64,000 nt of DNA from Pseudoselenomonas ruminantium. GTDB taxonomy: Bacteria; Bacillota; Negativicutes; Selenomonadales; Selenomonadaceae. This document shows, in pieces, positions 25,799-60,735 of this stretch (position 1 is its first letter; every line of letters begins with the position of its first letter). The notes under the pieces were generated by a model. It was not told the origin of the DNA, searched no databases, and saw only the letters and a list, made by a program, of their open reading frames with translations. The DNA is taken from NCBI RefSeq assembly GCF_900142515.1, contig NZ_FRBC01000003.1:62001-126000 (forward strand), written 5' to 3'. The position numbers and the translations under genes were made by a program.

Positions 25799-26030
25799 TG
25801 TGGATAATTTCGCAAATAATCCCGCTATCCACAGAAAAACTGTTGATAACTCACCATTATTTTGGTAAGATATTGTTGATAATTTTGCGGATAACTTCAC
25901 AGGTACTGATTTTCGGGAGGATTTGACTCCCGCATTTTTATCTCATTTTCCCGCCTCACTCCTTGTGGAAACCTTCAGTTATCCACACCTGTGGATAAAA
26001 ATGTGGATAAACTTATACACCTGTGGACAA
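25799..26030. other. oriC, left part: DnaA-box cluster upstream of dnaA
   Basis: Consensus DnaA boxes (TTATCCACA or its complement TGTGGATAA) are at 25799-25807, 25979-25987, 25990-25998 and 26002-26010. One-mismatch versions are at 25825, 25841, 25874, 25886 and 26022. The dense group at 25979-26030 lies just before dnaA, as in bipartite Firmicutes origins, and probably also autoregulates dnaA. Confidence 0.92.
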
Positions 26031-26071
26031 ATTTTCCTACATACTTTATATGCAGAAAGGAATTTTCTAAG

Positions 26072-27493
26072 ATGGAGCACACTCAGCTGCAGGCTGTCTG
26101 GGCACAGATTCTGGATAATATGAAAGACCAGCTGGCCCCGTCAGCCTTTAATTGGCTAAATCCAGTAAAGCCTATCTCCCTGACAGACGATACTCTGGAA
26201 CTCGGTACACAGACGGAAATGGCAAAGGAATGGATTGCCGGACACTATCAGACATTTATTGAAGATGCCGTCAAGGCTGTACTGGGATCATCCCGGATCA
26301 TAAATTTCACGGTTTTGGAGGAAACAGCTCCAGCCGAGGAAGAACCTGTTTCGATCCGCCGCCCGTCGAAAGGCGAGAATCCCAATCAGGGCATGCTTTT
26401 CAGCGACACGCCAGGAGAAAAACATGCCGATAGCGTTGCAGATGCTCACATCGTAGCACCTGGTGATACCTCCTCCCTGAATCCCAAATATACCTTCGAT
26501 ACTTTTGTCACGGGCAAATCAAACAATTTCGCCCATGCGGCAGCTATGGCTGTTGCGGATAAGCCCGGACAGACTTACAATCCCTTTTTCATGTATGGCG
26601 GCGTGGGTTTGGGCAAAACCCATCTGATGCATGCCATAGGCAACCGTGTCCTGAAAAACCATCCCGAAATGCGGGTGCTCTATGTATCCAGCGAACAGTT
26701 CACGAATGAGATCATCCAGGCCATCCAGCAGGGCACTTCGGATAAATTCCGCCAGAAATATCGCAACATCGATGTTCTCCTCATCGACGATATCCAGTTT
26801 ATTTCCGGCAAAACCAGTACCCAGGAAGAATTCTTCCATACCTTCAACACCCTGTATGATGCGCAAAAACAGGTAATACTGTCCTCCGACCGTCCGCCCA
26901 GAGAAGTGGAACGGCTGGAAGAGCGCCTGCGTTCCCGTTTTGAATGGGGATTGACGACGGATATCCAGGCTCCGGATCTGGAAACCCGCATCGCTATCTT
27001 GAAAAACAAGGCCCAAAGCGACCACTTCAATGTGCCTGATGATGTCATGGTCTATATTGCCAGCCGCATCGACAGCAATATCCGTGAGCTCGAGGGTGCT
27101 TTGACCCGAGTGGTTGCTTATGCATCTCTGACCAAACGGGCTGTGAATACGGAACTGGTGGCCGAAGCGCTGAAGGATATTTTCCCCAATGGCAAGGCCA
27201 AAGAAGTCACGATGGATGTGATCCAGGAAATCGTGGCCTCCTATTTCAAGATCAAGATTGAAGACCTGCATTCCAAGAAACGCACCCGTACGATAGCTTA
27301 TCCACGGCAGATTGCGATGTATTTATGCCGGGAATTGACGGAAACTTCCTTACCCCAGATTGGCCAGTTTTTCGGTGGCCGTGACCATACCACGGTTCTC
27401 CATGCCTACGATAAGATCAACCAGGATAAGGAAAGTGACAATCGTCTCAGCGGCATTCTGAATGAACTGATAGACCGTATCCAAAAGATCTGA
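26072..27493 (+). CDS. dnaA: Chromosomal replication initiator DnaA
   Basis: The 473-residue protein has an N-terminal helicase-interaction domain ([14 protein letters not shown]), a variable linker (about 85-135) and an AAA+ domain with Walker [10 protein letters not shown] (176-184) and Walker [10 protein letters not shown]. The C-terminal DNA-binding domain carries the signature [15 protein letters not shown] 26072 has AAAGGAA upstream. A frame continuing upstream to 25991 runs through DnaA boxes and is not coding. It binds the boxes on both sides of its own gene and melts the AT-rich element before dnaN. Confidence 0.97.
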
Positions 27494-27494
27494 A

Positions 27495-27534
27495 TTATCC
27501 ACGCCCTCGTTATTCACAATGAGGGCGTGGATAA
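27495..27534. promoter_or_regulatory. Palindrome made of DnaA boxes directly after dnaA
   Basis: A perfect 14-bp inverted repeat, TTATCCACGCCCTC with GAGGGCGTGGATAA, begins 1 bp after the dnaA stop codon. Each arm end is a one-mismatch DnaA box, and the loop carries a third box-like TTATTCACA. No T-run follows, so it is probably not a simple terminator. Confidence 0.8.
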
Positions 27535-27765
27535 CTTTGTGGAAATGAACATGTTTTTCCTGTTAGCAAAATGTGGATAAATTCTCCATCCACTTATCCC
27601 CGTGGATATTGTGGATAAGTGGGACTATGTTTATCTACACTTTACTAACAGCCAACCTGTCGATAAATACTGTGCTTTCCGCACTTTTCCACATTTCCAC
27701 AGGCCCTACTACTACTACGGCTATTTATTTATATATTTAGAGAGTAATAATAAAAAAAAGAAAGG
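27495..27765. other. oriC, right part: DnaA boxes, DnaA-trio and AT-rich unwinding element
   Basis: Between dnaA and dnaN are consensus boxes at 27572-27580 and 27610-27618. Variants are at 27495, 27510, 27526, 27631, 27658, 27685 and 27693. The last is followed by GGCCC and a run of CTA triplets (27706-27717; TAG on the other strand), then CGG-CTA and AT-rich sequence to 27765. This is the order box, GC patch, DnaA-trio, unwinding element known from the B. subtilis origin. Duplex opening is therefore predicted here. Confidence 0.9.
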
Positions 27766-58956: not shown

Positions 58957-59118
58957 ACCTTCTTTTCTCTAATTTTCGCTACTCAGTCTTACTCATTATA
59001 ACGCATATTTCTTATAAATCAATTAAGGAAATCTCATTATAACAAAGAAATATGAAAAAAACGGGGAGAAATAGGAAAAAGTGTTACAATAGAAGAAACA
59101 ATGGAAAGGATGAGGAAG

Positions 59119-59583
59119 ATGGCTATAGAGATCGAACGCAAGTTTCTGGTAAAAGAAAAATGGCAGCCGCAGGCTGAGGGGGTGAAAATCGCGCAGGGGT
59201 ATCTGTCCACCGTACCAGAACGTACGGTGCGGGTAAGAATCAAGGGAGAAAAAGGTTATTTGACCATCAAAGGCAAGAATGAAGGGATTACACGGGCTGA
59301 GTTTGAGTACGAAATTCCTGTGGCAGATGCAGAGGCCATGCTGAGATTAGCCGAACAGCCAGTGTTGAGCAAGATACGTTACCATGAATACCTTGGCGAT
59401 CATCTATGGGAAATCGATGTTTTTGCCGGTGCGAATGCAGGTCTGGTGGTGGCAGAGATTGAACTTTCACAGGCCGGGGAGGATTTTGTCCGGCCGGATT
59501 GGTTAGGGCAGGAGGTTTCTGGTGATGTCCGCTACTATAATGCAAACTTAATAAAAATGCCATTTTCTTTGTGGAAAAAATGA
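59119..59583 (+). CDS. CYTH domain protein (triphosphate tunnel metalloenzyme)
   Basis: The 154-residue protein begins with the hallmark EIERKFLVK motif. VRVRIKGEKGYLTIKGK and WEIDVFAG with alternating charged residues build the tunnel of CYTH/TTM enzymes. Likely substrates are inorganic triphosphate or thiamine triphosphate. ATG 59119 has GGATGAGGAAG upstream; an earlier ATG (59101) adds only MERMRK. It is followed by the DnaA-box cluster. Confidence 0.92.
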   Translation: MAIEIERKFLVKEKWQPQAEGVKIAQGYLSTVPERTVRVRIKGEKGYLTIKGKNEGITRAEFEYEIPVADAEAMLRLAEQPVLSKIRYHEYLGDHLWEIDVFAGANAGLVVAEIELSQAGEDFVRPDWLGQEVSGDVRYYNANLIKMPFSLWKK

Positions 59584-59613: not shown

Positions 59614-59845
59614 TTATCCACAAAAAATGGCAGGAAATCTGGGGATAAAAGCACAAAATATAGCAGAATGCAGTTGTTTCAGTTGGATATATAGGGTTAT
59701 CCACGGATTTATCCACATTATCCACAGTTTTGGGGCTGTTTTTTGTAAACAAATCACACATCACCTTTATATATTATAGTAAGAAATCAGAAAAAAAAGA
59801 ATCGCTCAGATAGTTATCCACAGCTGTGGATTACTATGTGGATAA
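59614..59845. promoter_or_regulatory. Second DnaA-box cluster, 32 kb from oriC
   Basis: Consensus DnaA boxes lie at 59614-59622, 59709-59717, 59718-59726 (back to back), 59814-59822 and 59837-59845; one-mismatch boxes are at 59697-59705 and 59825-59833. They fill most of the 377-bp gap between the CYTH and mgtC genes. No replication gene is adjacent, so a titration or regulatory role is more likely than a second origin. Confidence 0.88.
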
Positions 59846-59960
59846 ATTTTCGTTTTCTGCTGCCGGGATATGATGGACAGGCAGGATTTTAGCAATTGGC
59901 CACGAATTTATAGGATTGATAGAAGTGGTTTATTTTTACATAAACAGGAGGTGAGATATC

Positions 59961-60644
59961 ATGCTGTCGGAGTGGGAATTATTTCTGCGGCTGGTTCTTG
60001 CCTGCATCCTGGGGGGTATTATCGGTTATGAGCGGCAATCACGGCGCAAATCGGCTGGTTTGCGGACGAATGTGCTGGTATGCCTGGGGTCTTGCCTGAT
60101 CATGGTCATGTCAATCGGCCTGTATCAGGATGTGGAAGGAAAGACGAATGCAGACCCTGCCCGTCTGGCGGCACAGGTGGTCAGCGGTATCGGTTTTTTG
60201 GGCGCCGGTGCAATCATGAAGGAAGGCCTGTCTGTCACCGGTCTGACAACGGCGGCCTGCCTATGGGTCGTGGCTGGTGTGGGGCTGGCTGTCGGCGCAG
60301 GTTTTTATTCGGGCGCGTTGTTTTCGACGGCGCTGGTTTTTGTGACGCTGGGAAGCCTTTCCCGCCTGGATGACTGGGTGGATCATGAGAAGAACCTGGC
60401 ACTCAATATCCATACGATAGACCGTCCGGGGCAGCTGATGCGCATCAGCCGCTGCCTGGAAGATTTGCAGCTGCGGGTGCGGGGCGTAAAGGTAAAGGCC
60501 GACGAAGATGAGGTGGATGATAGCAGCGGCGAGCGCTGTATGTATATAGATCTGGAAATTTTCAATAAGCAGAGCATCAAGAGCATCATCATCGTGGATG
60601 CGGTTCGGCAGATTGATGGCGTGATCCGTGTGGATGTCGGTTGA
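59961..60644 (+). CDS. MgtC/SapB family membrane protein
   Basis: The 227-residue protein has the MgtC N-terminal membrane domain (LGGIIGYERQSRRKSAGLRT, GIGFLGAGAIMKEG, GLTTAACLWVVAGVGLAVG), with four to five helices. A soluble C-terminal ACT-like domain (residues 145-227) follows. In other bacteria MgtC inhibits the F-type ATP synthase and helps growth in low Mg2+; whether this member does so is unknown. AGGAGGTGAG precedes ATG 59961. Confidence 0.92.
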   Translation: MLSEWELFLRLVLACILGGIIGYERQSRRKSAGLRTNVLVCLGSCLIMVMSIGLYQDVEGKTNADPARLAAQVVSGIGFLGAGAIMKEGLSVTGLTTAACLWVVAGVGLAVGAGFYSGALFSTALVFVTLGSLSRLDDWVDHEKNLALNIHTIDRPGQLMRISRCLEDLQLRVRGVKVKADEDEVDDSSGERCMYIDLEIFNKQSIKSIIIVDAVRQIDGVIRVDVG

Positions 60645-60735
60645 ACTTTTATTTTTTTAGCTGAAAGGGATTTTGGCTGTCAATGGAGAATAGCAGAAAT
60701 AAGTGGTAGTGGCTGAAAAAAGGAGTGAATATGAA

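Follow-up and report, generated by a model that had tools for sequence, protein, structure and literature searches.

Introduction

What is a dense group of DnaA boxes doing in an intergenic gap that has no replication gene beside it? The stretch of Pseudoselenomonas ruminantium DNA analyzed here (64,000 nucleotides, hereafter the window) carries oriC at 25.8-27.7 kb, around dnaA, and a 232-bp box cluster whose start lies 32.1 kb past the dnaA end, in agreement with the distance of about 32 kb given in an initial annotation.

Results

A cluster of DnaA boxes beyond chance

A pattern scan of the window found five exact copies of TTATCCACA in the cluster, with a back-to-back pair among them, as the initial annotation had it; its total of seven boxes has to be raised to eight at ≤1 mismatch, with three one-mismatch boxes added to the exact ones (Table 1). 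One extra one-mismatch box, TTTTCCACA at 59570 on the minus strand, falls outside this span, in the last part of the upstream ORF. ORF and Pfam readings place a CYTH-domain gene upstream and an mgtC-family gene downstream, so that the gap is indeed intergenic and adjoins no replication gene. An artefact is excluded for the box cluster. From 5' to 3', the element consists of a single box, 83-84 bp, a tandem triad of boxes, about 97 bp and an inverted triplet with a geometry also found upstream of dnaA. Gaps between boxes are 3 bp in the triad and 2 and 3 bp in the inverted module, within the 2-3 bp that E. coli DnaA is described as preferring (PMC11317965).

Table 1. Features of the DnaA-box element, its flanking genes and the related module at oriC (window coordinates)
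Feature	Position	Strand	Basis	Remarks
Whole DnaA-box element	59614..59845	.	box scan, genus alignment, profile matches	between CYTH gene and mgtC
Box 1, exact TTATCCACA	59614..59622	+		83 bp 5' of the triad
Weak box TTATCCCCA, one mismatch	59640..59648	-	box scan, genus alignment	conservation partial
Conserved non-box motif CACAARATATRG	59652..59663	+	genus alignment	
Conserved non-box motif, family form TATATATRGGG	59686..59696	+		adjoins the triad
Tandem triad: TTATCCACG, 3-bp gap, TTATCCACA, TTATCCACA	59697..59726	+	box scan, alignment	one-mismatch TTATCCACG at 59697+; exact boxes at 59709+ and 59718+, these two back to back without a gap
Conserved weak-box-like block, common form ACAATATACACAT	59749..59761	+	genus alignment	
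Conserved AT-rich block TTTATATATTATAGTAAGAAA	59766..59786	+	alignment	-10-like; also in L037, without adjoining mgtC
Inverted module: box +, N2, box -, N3, box - (offsets 0/11/23)	59814..59845	+	box scan	exact TTATCCACA at 59814+, one-mismatch TAATCCACA at 59825-, exact TTATCCACA at 59837-
CYTH-domain protein gene	59101..59583	+	Pfam	commonest neighbor of the element (16/20 loci read in detail)
mgtC-family gene	59961..60644	+	Pfam	directly downstream in 9/20 loci read in detail
0/11/23 module upstream of dnaA in oriC	25979..26010	+		exact match; same module as the 3' end of the element

Could such a group have accumulated by chance or through base composition? The roughly six-fold over-representation of TTATCCACA across the genome (112 exact copies against 18 of the reversed pattern) would favor this, yet even at that genome density five exact boxes in 232 bp have a probability of ∼3e-13, or ∼1e-6 over the whole genome. 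Tests by shuffling and by placement agree, and the claim of the initial annotation that the density is very unlikely by chance holds. The window contains 64 sites at ≤1 mismatch where shuffles predict 14.0 (SD 3.5), with 18 of them at oriC (25799-26118 and 27495-27693) and 9 at the element by our own count. In G005, a relative assembled as one contig with 90 boxes, 2,000 uniform placements never put more than three boxes into 232 bp; the element of this genome has four. Since the order and spacing of the boxes are moreover kept in 20/20 loci of the genus, conservation already refutes a chance origin, to which we give practically no credence.

One module is common to the element and the dnaA upstream region

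The inverted module at the 3' end of the element recurs in oriC. Within the window the oriC copy is exact, the element copy has one mismatch and the next best match has six. This (+,-,-) module at offsets 0/11/23 is found upstream of dnaA in 18/23 loci when up to two mismatches are allowed, and is thus common to the element and to the oriC/dnaA upstream region of the same genomes. G041 has the outer boxes only, G039 and G028 are without the module, and the form in G071 is a 0/12/24 variant; the stretch from G050 starts too near dnaA to judge. In other respects the two regions differ. No good triad was found at the dnaA upstream regions, where the one match (G071) has three mismatches, and the non-box motifs gave few scattered matches at oriC or at other clusters, including exact CACAAAATATGG in L285 and exact TATATATAGGG in L284. 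Conversely, oriC has a CTACTACTAC run and the skew minimum, and the element has neither. In the dnaA-dnaN gap of the window a CTACTACTACTAC run follows the DnaA boxes (27706-27718), and we take it to be a DnaA-trio-like unwinding site.

The element usually lies a few tens of kilobases from the origin. It shares a contig with dnaA in 18/23 genomes, at 13.3-56.3 kb in 17 of these and at 419 kb in G039; by the places of the profile matches, G048 and G052 come closer, at ∼4 and ∼11 kb from dnaA. Short contigs favor short distances, and a fairer count therefore comes from the 10 genomes in which the element sits on a contig known to be at least 1 Mb long: in eight it is 14.9-56.3 kb from dnaA, the exceptions being G039 and G031, whose dnaA is on another contig.

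Further box groups exist. On the one-contig chromosome of G005, groups of two to four exact boxes lie at -311, -77, +120, +142, +371, +409 and +469 kb from oriC, and several have counterparts by eye in the genome of the window. Other box groups of the genus (L271-L288), with neighbors named by eye from ORFs, sit near an MFS transporter with a glgB- or ptsI-like gene, near iscU/cysteine desulfurase, and near asparaginase, nrdG-like and mraZ-like genes; in L285, exact CACAAAATATGG at 1458-1469 overlaps a box of the group near iscU. Isolated exact boxes of G005:C1 point towards oriC (lagging-strand sense) in 50/60 cases, to which coding and skew bias may contribute. A lagging-strand preference of DnaA boxes is reported for E. 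coli (PMC12371093).

The element is conserved while its neighbors change

The initial annotation had proposed looking for the cluster upstream of mgtC in other Selenomonadaceae. An MgtC protein search of 22 genus genomes, including the genome of the window, returned an orthologue in 20, and all 20 carry the element upstream at nearly fixed spacing, whereas none of four mgtC paralogues (53-55% identical) has a box cluster. The two misses were G010 (81% complete; not among the later profile results) and G019 (99% complete), which has dnaA and is without CYTH, mgtC or a profile match. In the 20-row genus alignment, the seven main boxes are invariant in 58/63 columns, compared with 39/169 of the other columns. 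Four non-box blocks are conserved as well: CACAARATATRG, TATATATRGGG, ACAATATACACAT and CTTATATATTATAGWAGGAAA.

At the level of the family, a sequence-only profile (R1) had matches at E≤1e-3 in 99/121 genomes, but the weak ones include other box clusters and oriC, and we therefore counted at E≤1e-8. At this threshold the element is present in 73/121 Selenomonadaceae genomes and 21/30 genera, and in 0 of ∼155 other Negativicutes (hand counts; 200 genomes of the class searched, best match 30.6 bits, 3.0e-7). The absence of the boxes from close relatives, which the initial annotation had named as evidence against its reading, is thus not what we observed. We regard the 73 matches as the same locus because 72 of them have at least one of the CYTH, mgtC, LytR, cytidine-deaminase-like (CDA) and maeB genes in the fetched stretch (CYTH in 53, mgtC in 44); the sole locus without a shared neighbor gene is L261 of G125. 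At the same threshold the element is missing in 48/121 genomes and 9/30 genera, including the DnaA-bearing g8 and g30 and, within the genus, G019, and is therefore dispensable.

In the 20 loci read in detail, the element is preceded by CYTH in 16 and followed by mgtC in nine and by the deaminase-like gene in four. Its description as lying upstream of mgtC thus covers only some of these loci. In L083 the contig ends; L070 and L072 have the element between CYTH and a PTS component gene in convergent orientation, and so between gene ends; in L086 (g21) it sits by LytR and a TPR-protein gene ends towards it, as an integrase-core gene does in L088. With neighbors that change, and with copies kept between convergent genes, the element is not the promoter of a single gene. 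A strict linkage to CYTH was likewise rejected, with 16/20 loci only and three fetched g21 CYTH loci without a cluster.

Geometry in the family was measured from the triad, whose boxes are at 0, 12 and 21. A plus-strand box lies at -82 to -85 from the triad in 48/73 loci; 21 others have a box at -69 to -72. The terminal outer pair, 23 bp apart, was recognized in 53/73 loci, 109 to 153 from the triad start; these offsets have no clean period, and strict helical quantization of the triad-to-terminal spacing was rejected. The full architecture is typical and not universal, as 20/73 loci are without the 23-bp terminal pair and 7/73 fit the triad poorly (5-8 mismatches).

A related genus without the element, where dnaA is mostly undetectable

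No genome of genus g13 carries the element by R1 (0/12; 10 directly without a match, G124 and G127 inferred). DnaA domain IV (PF08299) was detected in 102/121 family genomes and in 1/12 of this genus. The g13 genomes without detectable DnaA (G033, G060, G077, G096, G102, G107, G112, G116, G120, G124 and G127) are 88-100% complete, and the DnaA of G088, used as a query against them, found nothing in 10 and one match of E 0.005 in G120. An Hda-type profile gave only weak matches in the three g13 genomes tested (best 1.3e-7 to 2.7e-4), compared with ∼1e-28 or better in the other 17 family genomes. Outside g13, PF08299 was missed in 8/109 genomes, six of them <90% complete. Five of these eight keep the element (G022, G076, G091, G114 and G122), so that element and DnaA track each other imperfectly genome by genome; their missing DnaA matches are probably assembly gaps, although G076 and G091 are rated 100% and 98% complete.

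In G060, the CYTH and mgtC genes are both open and separated by 0 bp, the CYTH stop being directly followed by the TTG at the mgtC start; the other three fetched g13 CYTH loci have different downstream genes. There is no TTATCCACA in 127 kb of g13 DNA read. In G088, the sole g13 genome with dnaA, the region beside dnaA (L302, G088:C19, 1904-2111) has seven copies of TTAAGCACA and three of TTAGGCACA, adjoining a CTACTACTAC run, and the recognition region of its DnaA is changed to KKDHATVMRA, with DHAT for DHTT. Judging from these sequences, G088 likely represents a natural switch of DnaA-box specificity. The four fetched g13 CYTH loci contained no co-evolved copy of the element with TTAAGCACA boxes. 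Since g13 is one clade, known from draft genomes, its losses may be one event. Bacteria without dnaA are described among free-living cyanobacteria, the others being symbionts and parasites (PMC7198777), and a clostridial endosymbiont without dnaA is in print (PMC10579323). Genus g13 provides a natural control, as it lacks the element and most of its genomes have no detectable dnaA.

Discussion

A probable DnaA-limiting element and its alternatives

The locus is conserved, usually near oriC, independent of its neighbors and absent from g13, where DnaA is mostly undetectable, which supports the reading that it is, as far as sequence can tell, very probably a DnaA-controlling element. We consider it probable that it works as an origin-proximal DnaA-box cluster of the B. 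subtilis type, limiting free DnaA after initiation. DnaA would oligomerize on the element with high affinity. At a few tens of kilobases from oriC the element would be copied soon after initiation, and its doubling would take up free DnaA and help to guard against re-initiation, along the lines proposed for the B. subtilis clusters; the several weaker clusters at other sites may add to this uptake. There is room for such a device in this family, as YabA was undetected in 20/20 family genomes tested (with a positive B. subtilis control) and no Hda exceeded the curated cut-off in 20 family genomes.

Titration alone nevertheless falls short as an explanation of the conserved non-box blocks. More tentatively, and as a possibility that we do not favor, Selenomonadaceae, in which neither YabA nor an Hda above the curated cut-off was found in 20 genomes, may control DnaA by a dedicated nucleoprotein near oriC. 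The dnaA-upstream module, the triad and co-factor sites (ATATRG-type motifs) at nearly fixed spacing might then loop to oriC or change the nucleotide state of DnaA, and the element would be lost where dnaA is lost or retuned to another box. With this architecture the order of the boxes, their spacing and the accessory motifs become open to testing, and Selenomonas ruminantium suggests itself as a model for how Firmicutes without detectable YabA limit initiation.

A change of nucleotide state is also the core of a second account, in which the element acts like DARS or datA and DnaA, perhaps with a second protein on the non-box motifs, exchanges or hydrolyzes its nucleotide. The rigid spacing exceeds what titration needs, the non-box motifs at nearly fixed positions could be co-factor sites, and the three-box cores of E. 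coli DARS1 and DARS2 share both the +,-,- polarity and the 12-bp offset from second to third box with the inverted module. However, both DARS cores have offsets 0/14/26, with 14 from first to second box where the element has 11, and the 0/11/23 module is common to the region upstream of dnaA and so has no DARS-like specificity. We therefore hold this account to be unlikely. Still less likely, in our estimate, is a DnaA-controlled promoter by which bound DnaA would regulate mgtC or another neighbor with the cell cycle. DnaA is described as a transcription factor in B. subtilis (PMC4447404), and in the window the element precedes mgtC, with promoter-like matches at 59746-59775 and 59753-59780 that overlap the conserved AT-rich block and another at 59935-59962 that adjoins mgtC. 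But four promoter matches compare with 1.8 (SD 1.4) expected, and mgtC is not directly downstream in 10/20 loci (nine have it; the contig of L083 ends). In L070 and L072 the element stands before the convergent PTS gene, with the AT-rich block still in the L070 element (L037), and G060 has an mgtC directly next to CYTH, with no element between them. We rejected an mgtC promoter as the main reading on the grounds of these changed neighbors and convergent settings.

A second or former replication origin could be imagined from the box module of dnaA-upstream type and the AT-rich block. By reading of the sequence there is no CTACTACTAC run beside the boxes, unlike at 27706-27718 in oriC, the GC skew minimum lies only at 26-28 kb, and no initiator gene adjoins; membership among replication origins was rejected on the missing trio/DUE-type run and skew switch, and we give an origin hardly any probability. 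A structured RNA was discarded too, with no Rfam match near the element besides a sub-threshold ssnA match at 60651-60688, and no terminator-like site was found at the element. Nor is it a parS/centromere site: no TGTTTCACGTGAAACA-type site occurs near 59.7 kb. Three parS-like sites lie at 400, 2165 and 11103 of the window, on the other side of oriC.

Comparison with known DnaA-control systems

The initial annotation had likened the cluster to datA, DARS or the B. subtilis DnaA-box clusters. The last comparison is supported by conservation, proximity to oriC and absence from g13, whereas the likeness to datA and DARS is weaker, the geometry being different and the modules of the element not being found there. 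E. coli datA shares with the element several intergenic boxes and the control of DnaA; its function is described as relying on boxes 2 and 3, which flank an IHF site (PMC4585315). In the stretches that hold E. coli datA, DARS1 and DARS2 we found no 0/11/23 module and no triad.

The triad pattern occurs in other Firmicutes. Our scan returned at least 119 stretches, of which 80 were listed and the flanking ORFs of 17 were read, several being named by eye. Among the matches listed are loci in Paenibacillus next to ABC-F-type and leuA genes, in Lachnospiraceae next to hpf (S30AE) and DnaD-like genes, and in Exiguobacterium 3' of dnaA. A preference for this spacing does not follow from these matches, because the search itself was for that pattern. 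The Paenibacillus setting beside an ABC-F-type gene resembles, we presume, that of ydiF.

Searches of titles and abstracts on DnaA boxes in Negativicutes, in Selenomonas or with mgtC found no such element. Compared by description, the B. subtilis clusters (for example gcp/ydiF, sda/yqeG, ywlC and ywcI) are likewise rich in boxes and lie in non-coding gaps away from oriC, with several clusters per genome, and the element agrees with them in its dense consensus boxes outside oriC, above chance, in non-coding DNA near the origin. The gcp/ydiF cluster lies between two gene 3' ends (PMC4447404), and the element similarly lies between gene ends in L070 and L072. Deletion of six B. subtilis clusters is reported to give early initiation, in a review that also doubts a significant role for them (PMC5295017). 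The element differs from these clusters in its gene neighborhood and in an architecture and non-box motifs that are kept across many genera. The chromosomal DnaA-control elements that our literature searches brought up belong to E. coli and B. subtilis, to which the element described here adds an independently conserved case from the Negativicutes.
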